Origin: Candidatus Eiseniibacteriota bacterium
Lineage (GTDB): Bacteria > Eisenbacteria > RBG-16-71-46 > CAIMUX01 > WJJG01
Direction: 5' to 3'
DNA: 46,111 nucleotides
NCBI GenBank assembly: GCA_023129715.1
Contig: JAGMBO010000107.1
Location: forward strand, 1-46,111
A model generated the notes under the pieces. The model was not told where the DNA came from. It searched no databases and was given only the letters and a program-made list of their open reading frames with translations. The position numbers were made by a program, and so were the translations under genes. Shown one piece after another: positions 1 through 18,485 of the stretch. The first letter of the stretch is position 1. The number at the start of each line of letters is the position of its first letter.

Positions 1-1752
1 AATCAGTTGGTACAGGCCACTAGTCTGGGCTTCGGCCTCCAAGCCCAGCTCTTTGATGGCCATCTCCCGCATCTTGAATTTCTGGATCTTGCCGGTAACG
101 GTCATGGGAAACGCGGAGGCAAACCTTATGTACCTCGGGATCTTGTAATGGGCAATGTTTCCTCGGCAGAACTCCCGAACTTCATCTGCGGTGGCGCTCT
201 CTCCCTCTTTCAGTTGAATCCAGGCCTGGATTTCCTCGCCATACTTCTTGTCGGGAACACCAATTACTTGAACATCCTTGATCTTGGGATGAGCAAAAAG
301 GAATTCCTCGATCTCTCTCGGGTAGATATTCTCTCCGCCCCGGATTATCATCTCCTTGATCCGACCAGTGATCCTGCAGTATCCCCTCTCGTCCATGGTG
401 GCCAGGTCACCGCTGTGCAGCCAGCCCGCCGCGTCGATCACTTCCGCCGTGGCGCCGGGGTTGTTGTAGTAGCCCCTCATTGTGCTGTAGCCCCTGAAGC
501 AGATTTCCCCCTGCTGACCACAGGGTATGGTTTGTCCCGTATCCTGGTCGACTACCTTGACCTCCAGATGAGGCAAGGGTGAGCCCACCGTTGCGGTGCG
601 GTCTTCCAACGAGGCATCGACCGGAGTTAGGGTGGCGACTGGGGAGGCTTCCGTCTCGCCATACGCTATGACGATTTCCCTGACATGCATCAGATCAATC
701 GCCTTCCGCATGACCTCTACCGGGCAGGGCGCCCCAGCCATGATGCCCGTTCTGAGCGTGCTGAGATCGAATTGGGCGAATTCTGGATGGTCCATCACGG
801 CAATGAACATGGTCGGCACCCCGTGAACCGCTGTGCATTTCTCCTTCTCGATTGCCTGCAGCGTGGAGAGAGGGTCGAAATACTCGGCCGGCATGACCAT
901 GGTGGCACCATGGGTGAGGCAGACAAGGTTCGAGAGCACCATGCCGAAGCAATGGTAGAAGGGCACGGGGATGCAGAGCCTATCCTTGTCCGTGAAGCGC
1001 ATGCCCTCCCCAACGGAATGGCCGTTATTGACTATGTTGTTATGGGTCAGAGACGCTCCCTTTGGCGATCCTGTGGTTCCGGAGGTGTATTGGATGTTTA
1101 TCAGGTCGTCGATATCCAGTCGTTTCTGCCTTTGCGCTAGCTCTTCATCGGAAATACCCTCGCCCAGCTTCATGAACTCCTGCCAGGCACGCATGCCCGG
1201 GGAGGCCTCATCGCCAATGAGAATGACATTGCGCATGAAAGGCAGGTTCTTCGGTTTCATCTGTCCTGGCGCGGAATCCTTGGCTTCAGGACACACGGAG
1301 TAGAACATGGAAACATAGTCCGAGGTCTTGAAGCGGTCGATAAGCAGCAGGGTGCCGGCCTCGGAGTTACGCAAAGCGTGCTGGAGTTCATGAGTCCGAC
1401 AGGCGGGATTGATGTTGACCAGCACGGCGCCGATCATGGCGGTGGAGAGCTGTACGATCACCCACTCCGGGCGATTGGTGGCCCAGATGGCCACCCGATC
1501 GCCCCTTTGCACCCCCAGGGTCATGAAGCTCTTGGCCGCTCTCCGACACGTGTCTCGGAACTCCCGGTAGGTGTATCTCCGGTCACTGGGAACATCGACC
1601 AGGGCTTCATTGTCAGGGTGCTTCTCCGTAATCTCGTCAAGCAGATCCGGTATGGTCTTTTCCAGCAAGGGGATGTCATCCCCACCGAAGGCATAACTCA
1701 ACTTGGGCGATTCAGCCACTTCTGCGCTCCTGTTGCTATGTTCTTGTTCCAT
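1..1752 (-). CDS. Acyl-CoA synthetase (AMP-binding), 3' end cut by window edge
   Basis: Predicted to activate a fatty or other carboxylic acid with ATP and then CoA (ANL superfamily). The reading frame is open for 584 codons to the first base of the window, so only the last few residues are missing. Visible motifs: the P-loop-like YTSGTTGSPKGA near residue 195, the YGETE motif, the GWLHSGDLA segment, the hinge ITGRIKEMIIRGGENIYP, and the C-terminal lysine region TVTGKIQKFKM. ATG 1752 has GGGAG 8 nt upstream; an in-frame GTG at 1767 with GGAGGA 6 nt upstream is an equally good start. Base use is richer in A/T than in most neighbours, with many AGG, AGA and ATA codons, and an IS21 relic lies just upstream. 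I infer possible lateral acquisition. Substrate is unknown; medium- or long-chain FadD-type is most likely. Confidence 0.93.
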   Translation of the reverse strand, partial: MEQEHSNRSAEVAESPKLSYAFGGDDIPLLEKTIPDLLDEITEKHPDNEALVDVPSDRRYTYREFRDTCRRAAKSFMTLGVQRGDRVAIWATNRPEWVIVQLSTAMIGAVLVNINPACRTHELQHALRNSEAGTLLLIDRFKTSDYVSMFYSVCPEAKDSAPGQMKPKNLPFMRNVILIGDEASPGMRAWQEFMKLGEGISDEELAQRQKRLDIDDLINIQYTSGTTGSPKGASLTHNNIVNNGHSVGEGMRFTDKDRLCIPVPFYHCFGMVLSNLVCLTHGATMVMPAEYFDPLSTLQAIEKEKCTAVHGVPTMFIAVMDHPEFAQFDLSTLRTGIMAGAPCPVEVMRKAIDLMHVREIVIAYGETEASPVATLTPVDASLEDRTATVGSPLPHLEVKVVDQDTGQTIPCGQQGEICFRGYSTMRGYYNNPGATAEVIDAAGWLHSGDLATMDERGYCRITGRIKEMIIRGGENIYPREIEEFLFAHPKIKDVQVIGVPDKKYGEEIQAWIQLKEGESATADEVREFCRGNIAHYKIPRYIRFASAFPMTVTGKIQKFKMREMAIKELGLEAEAQTSGLYQLI

Positions 1753-9346: not shown

Positions 9347-9378
9347 CAGTACACTAGGTATATATACCTAGTGTACTG
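9347..9378. other. 32-bp perfect palindrome in a convergent intergenic region
   Basis: CAGTACACTAGGTATA is followed immediately by its exact reverse complement. Flanking CTTT and AAAG extend the symmetry with one bulged C. It is AT-rich against a GC-rich background. As RNA it gives a 14-bp stem with a 4-nt loop in either direction, without a U tract. It lies between two convergent genes (ends at 9185 and 9468). It could be a bidirectional terminator, a binding site for a dimeric protein, or a recombination site. Confidence 0.9.
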
Positions 9379-13577: not shown

Positions 13578-14363
13578 TCAACGCCCCCGGGCGGCAGGGT
13601 TCATGCGGGCAGCGGGATCTTGGGCATAGTAGGCCTGCAGGAGGCGGTAGAGATCCGGGTGCCTCGCCCGCAGCCCGCCAGGCACTTCGAAGAAGTACTC
13701 GGTGACGACGGCGAAGAACTCGGCGGGACTCTCGGCGGCGTACTCGTCGAGGAACGCCCGACGGCCGCGCTCCACGCGGCGGACGAGGGCCTCATACTGG
13801 CGCGTAAAGACGCGCGCCCACTCGGCAATCATCGAGTCTTCGGGGAGCACCGGGATGCCGTTGGCGTCTCCGGTTTCCTCGTCCAGCTGATGGGCGAACT
13901 CGTGGAGGACGACATTGTAGCCATCGCCTGGATCGCGACTGCTCTCGAGAACCTCGTCCCAGGAGAGCACGACCGCCCCCTGCGACCAGGATTCCCCCGC
14001 GCGTTCCTCGAGGCCCTCCGATACCGTCCCCTCGGGCCATTCGGTGAGATCGGGCGCTACGTAGGCCTCGGGGTAGACGATCACCGACTGCAGCTCCGGA
14101 TAGAGGCGCGTCTCACGACCGAGCAAGAGCAGGCAGGCCTGGGCGGCGATGGTGACGCGGATCTCATCGGTCATCTCGAGGCGGCCGGCGCCCTCGAAGT
14201 TCTTCTGCGCGATGAAGTCCTGGGTAAGGCGCTGGAGCTCAGCCCGCTCCGCGGATGAGAGGCTCCGGTAGTAGGGAACATTCCGCTTGAGAATCGCGAT
14301 CCACGCCGGGGAAAAGGGAAGCGGGGCTTTGCGCCCTCGAGATCGCCGCCGGGACCAGAACAT
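13578..14363 (-). CDS. mtfA: MtfA-like M90 family zinc peptidase
   Basis: Predicted zinc metallopeptidase of the Mlc titration factor A / DUF980 family. In E. coli, MtfA binds the repressor Mlc and has aminopeptidase activity; whether an Mlc partner exists here is unknown. 261 residues, close to the usual 260-270. The zinc motif VVLHEFAHQLDEETGDANG is clear (HExxH), as are the upstream VLSWDEVLESS strand and the downstream ESPAEFFAVVTEYFFE helix with its conserved Glu. ATG 14363 follows GGAGG with 7 nt spacing. An ATG at 14399 overlaps the predicted -10 box and was not used. The gene stands alone. Confidence 0.9.
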   Translation of the reverse strand: MFWSRRRSRGRKAPLPFSPAWIAILKRNVPYYRSLSSAERAELQRLTQDFIAQKNFEGAGRLEMTDEIRVTIAAQACLLLLGRETRLYPELQSVIVYPEAYVAPDLTEWPEGTVSEGLEERAGESWSQGAVVLSWDEVLESSRDPGDGYNVVLHEFAHQLDEETGDANGIPVLPEDSMIAEWARVFTRQYEALVRRVERGRRAFLDEYAAESPAEFFAVVTEYFFEVPGGLRARHPDLYRLLQAYYAQDPAARMNPAARGR

Positions 14364-14389
14364 GACCCATCCTCCACTGCCCGCCGGCC

Positions 14390-14398
14390 AGTGTAGCA
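14390..14398 (-). promoter_or_regulatory. Extended -10 promoter of the mtfA-like gene
   Basis: TGC followed by TACACT on the minus strand (14398-14390), about 27 nt upstream of ATG 14363. No good -35 is visible, as is usual with an extended -10. Confidence 0.4.
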
Positions 14399-14544
14399 TG
14401 TCGGGCGGACGGCGACACGAAGCCGCAGCAGAGTGTTGCGCCCCCGCGTTCTGCCGCGACTGCCGGCCGATCGATCAGCTTTGAACGCGACTGCCGCGGA
14501 CCGCGACACAGGCTTGTGAAGTCGGGACGGGTCGACACAACACA

Positions 14545-14885: not shown

Positions 14886-15101
14886 GGGCGGGCGCGACCC
14901 GCTTGAGGAGCGCGGGCCGCCGGAGGGTGAGCCGGCCGGCGACGGATTCCGAGGGTCGGCGAAGGCCTCCCGAGGCGCGCAAACGGGGGGGGCGTCTGGC
15001 GGTGTGGGGGATACAATCCATTGTGCTCCCTCAACTTGTTGAGATCATGGAAGATGGCCCGCCGCCCGGCGAAGGCTGTCGACCGAGGATTTGTTGTTGA
15101 C

Positions 15102-15134
15102 ACACCGTCATTTTTCGCCGAAAAATGACGGTGT
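15102..15134. promoter_or_regulatory. 33-bp palindrome over the DUF4143 ATPase start region
   Basis: ACACCGTCATTTTTCG, a central C, then the exact reverse complement. It ends one base before ATG 15136. TTGACA (15097-15102) overlaps its left edge, and AAAAAT about 18 bp further could serve as a -10, so the palindrome would cover the whole promoter. It looks like an operator, perhaps autoregulatory. As RNA it would form a 16-bp hairpin that hides the start. It could also be the remnant of a small palindromic repeat element. Confidence 0.8.
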
Positions 15135-15135
15135 C

Positions 15136-16296
15136 ATGACAAGCACGCAATTACCACGGATCATCAAGCCCGCCAAGGGATCGTTCTTTCTCTTCGGGCC
15201 GCGCGGGACCGGGAAGAGCACCTGGCTCAAGACCGCGTTTCCGCGCGCCCACACGATCAATTTGCTCGATGAGGCACTCTATCAGTCCTACCTCGCAGAC
15301 ATCGGTCTCTTTGTTGCCGAGCTTCGCTCTCTGCGGCCCGGGACGCAGGTGGTGCTCGACGAGGTCCAACGGATTCCCCAACTCCTCAACGAGGTGCATC
15401 GCTTCATGGAAGAGCGGCGCCTGCGCTTCGTTCTCTGTGGTTCATCTGCCCGCAAGCTCAAGCAGAGCGGGACGAACCTCCTTGCCGGGCGGGCGGTGCG
15501 CCATCACATGCACCCGTTTGTTCCGGAGGAACTCGGTCGAGAGTTCGACCTCGATGACCTGCTCCGCTGGGGAAGCCTTCCCGTGATCTGGAACGCTGAG
15601 GATCGCCGGGGGGCGCTCGAGGCGTACGTACAGATGTACTTGCGCGAGGAGATTCAGGCCGAAGCCTTGGTGCGCAATCTTCCCGGCTTCGCCCGCTTCC
15701 TGCCCATCGCGGCGCTCTTTCATGCGCAGACACTGAACGCGGCGGGCCTGGCCCGCGATGCACAAGTCGCTCGCACGACGGTCCTGGGGTATCTGAGCGT
15801 TTTGGTGGACACCCTAGTCGCGTTCACCCTGCCCGCGTATGAGACGAAGCTGCGAGTCAAGGAGCGCAAGCACCCGAAGCTCTACTGGTGCGATCCGGGA
15901 CTCGTTCGCGCACTCAGACGGCAATTCAGTCCCCCGGGAGCCGAGGAGTGCGGAGCCCTGTTCAAAGGATGGATCGCCCAATTGCTTCGGGCCTACCGTG
16001 ACTATCGGCGGCTTTACGATGACTGGTTCTACTGGGCACCGAGTGAGGCACAGCGGACAGAGGTTGACTTCTTGCTGCGTCGCGGGCAGGAGATGGTAGC
16101 GATCGAGGTCAAGGCCGGGAAGACATTTGCCGAAGTTGATGCGCGCGGGCTGCGCGCGATCGCTGAGCTGCAGGGACTGACCCGCCGAATCCTGATCTAC
16201 AGAGGCGCGCGAAGACTGAAGACCAAGGATGGGATCGACGTCCTGCCGGTCGGTGCCTTCGCAGAGGAATTGGAGGGTGGACGCCTCTTCCCGTAG
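15136..16296 (+). CDS. AAA_14 ATPase with DUF4143 domain
   Basis: 386 residues. N-terminal P-loop ATPase with Walker A GPRGTGKSTW (about 21-30), Walker B VVLDEVQRIP (72-81) and a sensor-like FVLCGSSARKLKQSG. The C-terminal DUF4143 half ends in a restriction-endonuclease-like fold (RTEVDFLLRRGQEMVAIEVK), with Asp, Glu and Lys spaced as in PD-(D/E)XK proteins. A helical LARDAQVARTTVLGYLSVL segment looks like a DNA-binding winged helix. These proteins are widespread and patchily distributed, and their biological role is not established. ATG 15136 is preferred over an upstream TTG at 15091, since a 33-bp palindrome sits directly before it. No Shine-Dalgarno site is present. It converges with the LVIVD gene across 14 bp. 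Confidence 0.9.
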   Translation: MTSTQLPRIIKPAKGSFFLFGPRGTGKSTWLKTAFPRAHTINLLDEALYQSYLADIGLFVAELRSLRPGTQVVLDEVQRIPQLLNEVHRFMEERRLRFVLCGSSARKLKQSGTNLLAGRAVRHHMHPFVPEELGREFDLDDLLRWGSLPVIWNAEDRRGALEAYVQMYLREEIQAEALVRNLPGFARFLPIAALFHAQTLNAAGLARDAQVARTTVLGYLSVLVDTLVAFTLPAYETKLRVKERKHPKLYWCDPGLVRALRRQFSPPGAEECGALFKGWIAQLLRAYRDYRRLYDDWFYWAPSEAQRTEVDFLLRRGQEMVAIEVKAGKTFAEVDARGLRAIAELQGLTRRILIYRGARRLKTKDGIDVLPVGAFAEELEGGRLFP

Positions 16297-16310: not shown

Positions 16311-18485
16311 TCACCGTACGATCAGCACACGCCCGCTGGCCCGATCGCCTGCGGTCGTCGTGATGCGCATGAGATAAACTCCTGCCGCGACTGGATGGCC
16401 GGCATGATCCCGCCCGTCCCACATGAGATCGCCGACACCGGCTGGGAAGACCGCATCGAGCAGCGCCCACACTTGCCGCCCGGTGACATCGTGGATGTGT
16501 GCGTCCACGCGGCTGTGCGCCGGCAGCTCGAGGCGGATCCCAATGCGATCCGATCCTGGGTTCGGAAAGATGCACACGCTCAGTGACGCAGCCGTTGGCT
16601 CCGGTGGACTGGCCGATTCGGGCTCGCACTGCAGCGGCAGGATCCAGAGACCGTAGTAGTCGGCCACGAAGACGTACGTCTCTGAAACTGCCACCCCGCA
16701 TGCTTCCACAGGGGTCGTCACGCCACCCACGAGCCATGGGGACTTGGGATTCGCGATGTCGATCACCTGGAGACCACTGTACCCGTCCGCGACATACGCG
16801 TGGGTGCCCAAGAGAGCCACGTCTCGGGCAGCGTAGGGCGTGTCGGTGCTGCCCACGAGATACGGGTTGGTGGGATCCGTGATGTCGGCGATTCGTAGAC
16901 CGGAACTCCCGTCCGCGATATATGCATACTTGCCGGAGAGCGCCACGTCGTGGGCGGAGCCAGGTGTCTCCAGGTGGCCGACAATCTGTGGGCTCTGTGG
17001 GTTCTTGATGTCGATGATCTGCAGACCGGCTGAACCGTTGGCAACGAAGGCGTGATCGCCCGAGATGGCCATGTCTCCCGCGGAGCCTGGCGTTTGCACG
17101 CTACCTGCAATCACGGGATTCTGGGGATCGCTGACATTGACTACATAGAATCCGGCCGAACCATCCCCAACATAGGCATAGTCTCCCGAAGCGGCCACGC
17201 CATAGGCGAACGCCGGGAGGGGCACGCTCCCCGTGACGTAGGCGTTCTCGGGGTCCGCGATGTCGATGACATGCAGGCCGGTCTGATAGGTGGCGGCGTA
17301 GGCATAGGCGCCGCAGATGGTCACCGCCTGGGCGAATCCCGGCACATACACGCCGTCGATGACCTGCGGGTCGTCAGGAGAGGCGATGTCGATCACCAGG
17401 AGGCCCGAGCCTTGATCGACAAGCAAGGCGTAGGAGCCTGAGATGGCGATGTCGAGAATGTTGTCGTATTCCAGATCGAGACTTCCCACGACCTCGGGAC
17501 ATCGCGAGTTACCGAGCTCGAAAACCTGCAGGCCGTTCCAATCGGGCGGTTGGTCGTCTCCGGAGACCGCGACATAGGCCCGGCCCTCCGAGACCGCCAC
17601 CCCGCGGGCGTTTCCCGGCCAGCCATCCACGTCGGCTCTGCAGAGGTGCTCGGGATCCCAGGGATCAGTGACGTCGACCGAATGGAGCCCGTCGTAGCTC
17701 GCGAAGTAGGCATGCGTACCGGAAACCGTCACGTCCCAACCTCGATCCGGCAGATCTGTGGCGCCCATGACAAACGGTGTCTGGGGGTCCGCGATATCGA
17801 TCACCGTCAAGGTGCTATCGGCGATCACGTAGGCCCGGGAGCTATCTACGGTCACCTGGGCGTAGTCCGCTGGGAGAGGTGCACTGCCGGCAAACTGAGG
17901 GTCTAGGGGGTTCGTCACGTCGATGACCTGCAGGTTCTGGCCAATCGTTGCATACGCATAGGCCCCAGAGGCGGCGATATCGCAGGCCGATTCGGGCGTG
18001 CTCAGCGTCGCGACGACCTCCGGATTCTCAGGGTCGGAGACGTCGATGACGCTGAGCCCCCAGAGGCCGTTGGCGGCGTAGACGTACGTGCCTGCGGCGG
18101 CAATGTCTGCAATCGGTGAGGTGTCCAGGATGCTGACGATCTGTGGGTTCAGGGGATCGGCGATGTCGATTACGCGAAACTGGATGCCGCTGACATAGGC
18201 ATGGGATCCAGAGAGAACCAAGTGATCCGCCATGAAATCACGGCTGGCGACGAGCTGCGGGACTGCGGGATCCGAAACATCGAATACCAAGAATCCGGAG
18301 CGCCAAGAGGTCACGTAGGCGAAAGAGCCGGAGACGGCGACATCCTCGGCACCCTCTAACATCTGTTGGCTGCCGATGGCGTGAAGGAACTCCCCATAGT
18401 CGATGCAGTCGTTGGCCGTAGATCCACTAGGGAGCGAGGCTCCCATCGCGGTTAGAACTCCGACGACCGCTAGGCTCTTCCACAT
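16311..18485 (-). CDS. Secreted LVIVD-repeat protein with C-terminal sorting-like domain (paralogue 1)
   Basis: 724 residues. ATG 18485 follows GAGGT with 6 nt spacing. Signal peptide at 1-24, then CIDYGEFLHAIGS. Thirteen LVIVD repeats of about 43-48 residues follow, each with SG.YAYVADG.SGLQVIDI and DP..P.IVG elements. The seventh is atypical (VFELGNSRCPEVV). The repeats probably fold as one or two beta-propellers. The C-terminal 80 residues are FlgD-like: FPNPGSDRIGIRLELPAHSR, IHDVTGRQVWALL, MWDGRDHAGHPVAAGVYLMR. LVIVD proteins are surface or secreted, with unknown ligands. It lies 22 nt downstream of a close paralogue with the same repeat number and order, so the pair arose by tandem duplication and is probably co-transcribed. 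Confidence 0.88.
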   Translation of the reverse strand: MWKSLAVVGVLTAMGASLPSGSTANDCIDYGEFLHAIGSQQMLEGAEDVAVSGSFAYVTSWRSGFLVFDVSDPAVPQLVASRDFMADHLVLSGSHAYVSGIQFRVIDIADPLNPQIVSILDTSPIADIAAAGTYVYAANGLWGLSVIDVSDPENPEVVATLSTPESACDIAASGAYAYATIGQNLQVIDVTNPLDPQFAGSAPLPADYAQVTVDSSRAYVIADSTLTVIDIADPQTPFVMGATDLPDRGWDVTVSGTHAYFASYDGLHSVDVTDPWDPEHLCRADVDGWPGNARGVAVSEGRAYVAVSGDDQPPDWNGLQVFELGNSRCPEVVGSLDLEYDNILDIAISGSYALLVDQGSGLLVIDIASPDDPQVIDGVYVPGFAQAVTICGAYAYAATYQTGLHVIDIADPENAYVTGSVPLPAFAYGVAASGDYAYVGDGSAGFYVVNVSDPQNPVIAGSVQTPGSAGDMAISGDHAFVANGSAGLQIIDIKNPQSPQIVGHLETPGSAHDVALSGKYAYIADGSSGLRIADITDPTNPYLVGSTDTPYAARDVALLGTHAYVADGYSGLQVIDIANPKSPWLVGGVTTPVEACGVAVSETYVFVADYYGLWILPLQCEPESASPPEPTAASLSVCIFPNPGSDRIGIRLELPAHSRVDAHIHDVTGRQVWALLDAVFPAGVGDLMWDGRDHAGHPVAAGVYLMRITTTAGDRASGRVLIVR

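Follow-up and report, generated by a model that had tools for sequence, protein, structure and literature searches.

A perfect palindrome of 33 bp lies at positions 15102–15134 of the window, i.e. the whole 46,111-nt stretch of DNA that was analysed. Its arms (15102–15117 and 15119–15134) are 16 nt long and 100% complementary, with a single base between them at the centre, 15118; the feature was assigned to neither strand. One base past its end, at 15136 on the forward strand, is the ATG of a gene for an ATPase of the AAA_14/DUF4143 type. A -35 box (TTGACA, 15097–15102, forward strand), recognized by consensus match only, overlaps the palindrome by one base, and a -10-like box (AAAAAT, 15121–15126, forward strand), recognized by consensus match and by the -10 to ATG spacing found throughout the family, lies within the right arm, with 18 nt between it and TTGACA and 9 nt between it and the ATG. 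The original prediction, made from the sequence alone, had placed a 33-bp palindrome on the promoter of a DUF4143 ATPase, ending one base before the ATG and overlapping TTGACA, and it was borne out in each of these points.

Among 100 dinucleotide-shuffled versions of the window, perfect arms grew to at most 14 bp, a length reached once, and never to 16 bp. Across the 186 contigs (4.83 Mb) of the genome, an 81-bp region around the palindrome matched only its own locus, and the core motif (GTCATTTN{5,11}AAATGAC) occurred once, at the palindrome, with no second copy 3' of the gene in the same genome-wide search. The many unrelated copies that had been named as evidence against a regulatory site were therefore not present in the palindrome's own genome, and the palindrome is confirmed as a real feature. 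When a 25-base pattern was searched with at most one mismatch, matches were obtained in 12 of 385 genomes. Three of the four places with an exact match were directly before DUF4143 genes (the fourth, in genome G186, was not), and one of the nine places matching only with one mismatch (L407) was beside a partial DUF4143 match, the other eight not. The window holds one other perfect palindrome with 16-bp arms (9347–9378, no loop, TACACTAGGTATA core), which lies between the 3' ends of the convergent genes for a FlgD_ig protein and a cytochrome c assembly protein, and is not clearly a terminator.

The protein encoded downstream of the palindrome has 386 aa (15136–16293, forward strand, with the stop codon next). 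Homologues suggest ATG 15136 as the start, while the open frame itself extends from a TTG at 15091. In Pfam, DUF4143 (99.2 bits, cut-off 28.1) and AAA_14 (70 bits, cut-off 27) were both above the gathering cut-off, and the only other family found in the protein was a sub-threshold AAA_22. Both neighbouring long frames are on the opposite strand (13578–14399, Peptidase_M90, upstream; 16311–18485, LVIVD repeats, next). Residues 21–28 (GPRGTGKS; 15196–15219, forward strand), which we take to be the Walker A motif, include four positions (G21, R23, G26 and K27) that were invariant among 22 sequences. In the C-terminal domain, E309, D311 and E324 were invariant and K326 was conserved in at least 90% of the 22 sequences; judged by these conserved residues, positions 309–326 (16060–16113, forward strand) form a PD-(D/E)XK-like motif and the domain is a putative nuclease-like one, as expected of a PDC-S01 protein. 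The assignment of PDC-S01 to the PD-(D/E)XK superfamily is taken from PMC12988326. All seven PDC-S01 models listed by PADLOC matched the window protein, the best strongly (E 1.6e-51).

An AlphaFold model was built from 11 sequences, with the operators not used as input (mean pLDDT 89.3, pTM 0.90). It predicts a winged helix at residues 182–251 (15679–15888, forward strand), with helices at 182–193, 202–209 and 213–225 and strands at 229–232 and 248–251; residues 213–225 (15772–15810, forward strand) would be the recognition helix. The putative DNA-binding winged helix that had been attributed to DUF4143 ATPases is thus present in the model. The fold of residues 1–262, which comprises the ATPase and winged-helix parts, resembled the archaeal ATPases PABY2304 (2qen; Z 15.5, 239 aligned, 3.0 A) and SSO1545 (2fna; Z 15.2, 242 aligned, 3.2 A), followed by NLRs such as RPP1 (Z 14.0). 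Foldseek matches included Cdc6/Orc1 on DNA and RuvB, as well as low-scoring long matches to CARF nucleases. By Pfam, the archaeal ATPases and the STAND/NLR proteins belong to another sequence family, and a common fold does not mean a common function.

According to PMC12988326, PDC-S01 consists of an ATPase domain fused to a member of the PD-(D/E)-X-K superfamily and ranks as the fourth most common defence system across prokaryotes, and most such candidates still await experimental validation. In rumen genomes, PDC-S01 is reported to be the individual locus found most often (PMC13356809). For one family member, TT_P0211 of Thermus thermophilus, a 6.6-fold rise in RNA is reported when an Argonaute-bearing strain contained a plasmid (PMC4406477), a result that fits with regulated expression. 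The family had been described as one of unknown function; this description stands insofar as no paper found states a function, but the family is already the PDC-S01 defence candidate of PADLOC, which corresponds to COG1373. No description of the regulation of PDC-S01, of an operator or of a leaderless promoter was found in the open-licence, non-preprint papers searched, where absence is not absence in print.

The comparison of upstream regions in related genomes, which had been suggested as a check, revealed equivalent repeats at DUF4143 promoters in many bacteria. Among 306 gene matches, 13 were without a P-loop match; 261 were unique and had enough upstream sequence, and 252 had at least 300 residues. 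Odd-centred inverted repeats with a score of at least 8 were found upstream of 50.4% of these 252 genes (a set containing close homologues, which are not independent of one another), whereas the controls gave 5.1% for 2140 coding windows taken from these genes and 6.8% for dinucleotide-shuffled sequences. By this score, about half of the 252 genes had no strong odd-centred repeat. Even-centred repeats were found upstream of 20.6% of the genes, compared with 5.6% of coding windows and 6.9% of shuffles. Among the repeats scoring at least 9, 89 of 116 were odd-centred, and when the site choice was smoothed over neighbours, 172 of the 215 sites in promoters had an odd centre; the coding control gave 76 of 150. 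This fixed parity of the repeat centre points to a dimer bound to DNA.

The sequence of the repeat differed between clades while its upstream position was equivalent. A related repeat (roughly CGTCAT ... ATGACG) was present at the same place in six of seven relatives, all metagenome assemblies, from Acidobacteria, Planctomycetota, Lentisphaerae, Spirochaetaceae, Desulfobacterales and Gemmatimonadetes. The exception was a close relative (L014, 61% identity) with no such repeat upstream of the match, where the start may be misaligned or the upstream region lost. Relatives at about 40% identity had a different word at the same place (roughly TTCCAT ... ATGGAA), and in the palindrome's own genome, where the upstream regions of three of the four other matches (L004, L005 and L006) were examined, each had yet another repeat. 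In a distant subfamily whose helix has Arg-Thr-Thr (L056, L053, L125, L126 and L221), the CGTCA word of the window gene is present, with an even centre and another distance to the start. DUF4143 matches were also found in 149 plasmid records, of which six were looked at. Upstream repeats were clear for the genes GCU53_RS00045 of Azotobacter salinestris, DTQ70_RS30290 of Runella sp. SP2 and D0Z66_20820 of Cereibacter sphaeroides, moderate in Mesorhizobium japonicum pMLa (score 7), and weak in Simkania negevensis (6.2) and Thermus thermophilus HB8 (5.0). The gene on the Simkania plasmid pSn (L382) is flanked by two site-specific integrase genes, and upstream of it are several ACTCC/GGAGT words at wider spacing. 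On the Runella plasmid (L385), the gene is flanked by genes for a WYL-domain regulator and another ATPase, and a CRISPR-associated gene is nearby.

Some genomes hold many DUF4143 matches. The 2.2-Mb genome G178 has 50 match rows (L173–L202 and L280–L282 among them), some of which are pieces of one gene, and many matches were also seen in G203, G089, G389 and G445. The idea that the operators of paralogues diverge to avoid cross-talk was rejected, since pairs of operators from one genome were no less similar than the remaining pairs: at 42–50% protein identity, the mean operator similarity was 2.97 for 54 same-genome pairs and 2.53 for 414 others (91 genes, with genome labels assigned by hand).

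Promoter-like sites of the sigma-70 type were recognized in 181 of 304 upstream regions, whereas 55.2 were expected from shuffles. Among the 154 genes in which an in-frame ATG followed such a site, 104 had it 6–9 nt after the -10 box, compared with 2.0 of 36.6 in shuffles. This is where transcription is expected to start, so these mRNAs look leaderless. For the window gene, the distance from the -10 box to the ATG is 9 nt, and the predicted transcription start is the right edge of the palindrome. Where a promoter and a repeat scoring at least 7 were both found, 93 of 132 repeats were centred in the interval from the -35 box to 12 nt beyond the first base of the -10 box. The leaderless rule is not universal, as four relatives (L013, L016, L017 and L025) have a -10-like box upstream of the repeat.

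When the operators were sorted by the recognition helix of the adjacent protein, they visibly clustered. Scans of single alignment columns gave mixed results. In one scan residue 214 was first, and in another it led two of the three identity ranges and was seventh in the third; in three further settings it was second, twelfth and outside the top 15, and G24, F17, Q5 and E171 came near or above it in some settings. There is no reason for these four residues to touch the operator, and G24, F17 and E171 are clade-marking columns. The high rank of the N-terminal columns (Q5, and window 2–9) may arise where the right arm reaches into the beginning of the coding sequence. A window scan was then used, in which the most similar relative under a ceiling of overall identity was chosen for each window of the protein and the likeness of the two operators was compared; it covered those 212 of the 304 genes whose site scored 7 or more.

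At a ceiling of 55% and with windows of 13 residues, the best raw value was obtained for residues 211–223 (3.058), practically tied with 236–248 (3.056); the mean over windows was 2.689 and that of all pairs 2.351. After correction for overall identity, residues 211–223 were first. With a ceiling of 45%, or with sites scoring at least 8 (153 genes), residues 209–221 were first in the raw scan. In the four 13-residue settings the top window, raw or corrected, was either 211–223 or 209–221, with 211–223 leading the corrected scan where either of the two led the raw one, and helix windows were ahead throughout. With 8 residues, the wing (236–243) was first in the raw scan and residues 208–215 in the corrected one. 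The control with coding windows peaked at 230–242, 129–141 and 86–98, and since the first of these, the top raw window, is located in the wing, no wing signal is claimed. In 30 random 70% subsamples with less than 55% identity, the top raw window was in the winged helix in all 30, and the top corrected window was in the recognition helix in 25. With less than 45% identity, the recognition helix was top in 6 of 30 raw and 12 of 30 corrected subsamples of the same size, i.e. the localisation was weak. The exposed positions of this helix (213, 214, 217, 218 and 221) are variable, whereas 215, 216, 219, 222 and 223 are conserved. Across the whole protein, the recognition helix (211–223) therefore appears to be the best predictor of operator similarity, less so among distant relatives.

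Two simple rules were fixed before new genes were added, namely that Lys214 goes with a CC half-site and Arg213-Thr214 with CGTCA. In the training genes, CC was found in a fraction of 0.63 of 83 Lys214 genes, compared with 0.09 of 34 Ser and 0.11 of 27 Thr genes. Among 52 held-out genes (46 with a site) it was found for 5 of 12 with Lys214, 2 of 15 with Ser or Thr and 2 of 19 others, which is weak support for the first rule. The second was not confirmed, as none of the four new Arg-Thr-Thr genes (L357, L366, L392 and L394) had CGTCA in the called half-site. Taken together, these simple residue-to-base rules performed poorly outside the training genes.

The upstream repeats in many bacteria, their covariation with the recognition helix and the winged helix of the AlphaFold model together argue that the palindrome is very probably a DNA operator, through which the AAA_14/DUF4143 protein encoded downstream would bind its own promoter and regulate its own expression. 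As the clade-specific versions of the repeat change together with the helix that would read the DNA, each of these proteins probably acts as a switch of its own gene. Both the operator and the autoregulation by the winged helix had been put forward in the original prediction, and both are supported by the family comparison and the model. We infer binding, dimerisation and repression as follows. A dimer of the ATPase would insert its recognition helices into two half-sites about 20 bp apart, with the centre of the site on a base, and in doing so would cover its own leaderless promoter from -35 to -10. Because the site spans these two boxes, repression is the likely sign, and the protein would most likely repress its own transcription. 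More speculatively, the nucleotide state or foreign DNA may free the operator, so that the candidate defence protein is expressed more strongly when it is called for.

A further possibility, tentative and rather doubtful at present, is that PDC-S01 is a one-protein switch that unites sensor, repressor and effector in one chain. The resting ATPase would sit on its clade-specific operator until some trigger, which might be foreign DNA, an exchange of nucleotide or the loss of the operator-bound state, releases it; this release would both open the leaderless promoter and free the nuclease-like domain. The recognition helix would then be the fast-evolving part.

The inverted repeat had also been thought well placed for an RNA hairpin that sequesters the start, and a transcribed palindrome folding over the start region could control translation or mRNA stability. 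The single strand does fold well (-28.9 kcal/mol, z -2.33), and in the four relatives with a -10-like box upstream of the repeat its transcription is possible. In the window, however, the start is predicted at the palindrome's right edge, with the start codon next to it, and the leaderless pattern of the family means that the palindrome is mostly upstream of the RNA, which makes a leader hairpin unlikely. The skew towards odd centres would be unneeded for RNA, the covariation maximum is in the DNA-binding helix, and G-U pairs (34 against 27.9 expected, in 187 non-Watson-Crick cells) were in no clear excess. A search of Rfam gave no family at gathering score, the only match being Trp_leader (E 0.89, 16.7 bits, cut-off 41). 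A structured RNA leader is not supported by these data, and we regard the hairpin as very unlikely. Separate regulators with palindromic operators are common, RptR being one example (PMC12255303), and the palindrome might be the operator of another host regulator that acts on DUF4143 genes. Against this, the sequence of the repeat follows the protein clade, and best of all the protein's own recognition helix, and similar sites go with the gene across phyla. The absence of the motif elsewhere in the genome, which leaves no regulon to be seen, likewise argues against another regulator, and this explanation appears improbable.

A role in mobility or nuclease cleavage instead of transcription, as an insertion target or a site of resolution or self-recognition, would suit a gene that is scattered across phyla, borne on plasmids and in one copy placed between integrase genes, and whose product has PD-(D/E)XK-like residues. 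Against this, the genome contains the motif just once, with no second copy after the gene, and its position is fixed relative to the -35 box, the -10 box and the ATG; such a role is highly improbable. The presence of another perfect palindrome with arms of this length in the window might suggest chance, but shuffles never reached 16 bp and the repeat recurs in the family. A dispersed repeat element was rejected because both the palindrome region and the motif are single in the 4.83-Mb genome. The probability left for chance or a repeat element is close to nil. The self-encoded operator is therefore the explanation that we prefer.

Autoregulation of this kind has a parallel in AbiEi, the antitoxin of the type IV AbiE system, which is likewise linked to defence and regulates its own promoter via inverted repeats (PMC7319586). 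AbiEi, as a separate antitoxin protein, shares a two-gene operon with a DUF1814 toxin, whereas the DUF4143 protein combines the DNA reader with ATPase and nuclease-like domains in a single chain encoded by a solitary gene. No co-transcribed DUF1814 toxin partner was found in the window, the flanking long frames (13578–14399 and 16311–18485) being on the other strand. By analogy, the window gene may be regulated in a mode like that of AbiEi, but it would not be a member of the AbiE system. Promoters of defence genes are also repressed by the WYL-domain regulators of defence islands (PMC9122601) and by RptR (PMC12255303), but these are encoded by separate genes and act on neighbouring effectors, whereas here the regulator would be the effector-like protein itself.

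According to PMC12988326 and PMC13356809, few defence candidates are more common in prokaryotes than PDC-S01, yet no paper found gives its function. The self-operator would be a first concrete handle on it, providing for each protein a predicted DNA ligand that can be read from the sequence, and the gene's own promoter could serve as a reporter that tells when the protein is engaged. In addition, the family would supply many natural pairs of a winged-helix protein and its site, from which the rules by which recognition helices choose DNA could be studied. If the one-protein switch is true, there would be tens of thousands of such switches, differing mainly in the DNA word that they read.
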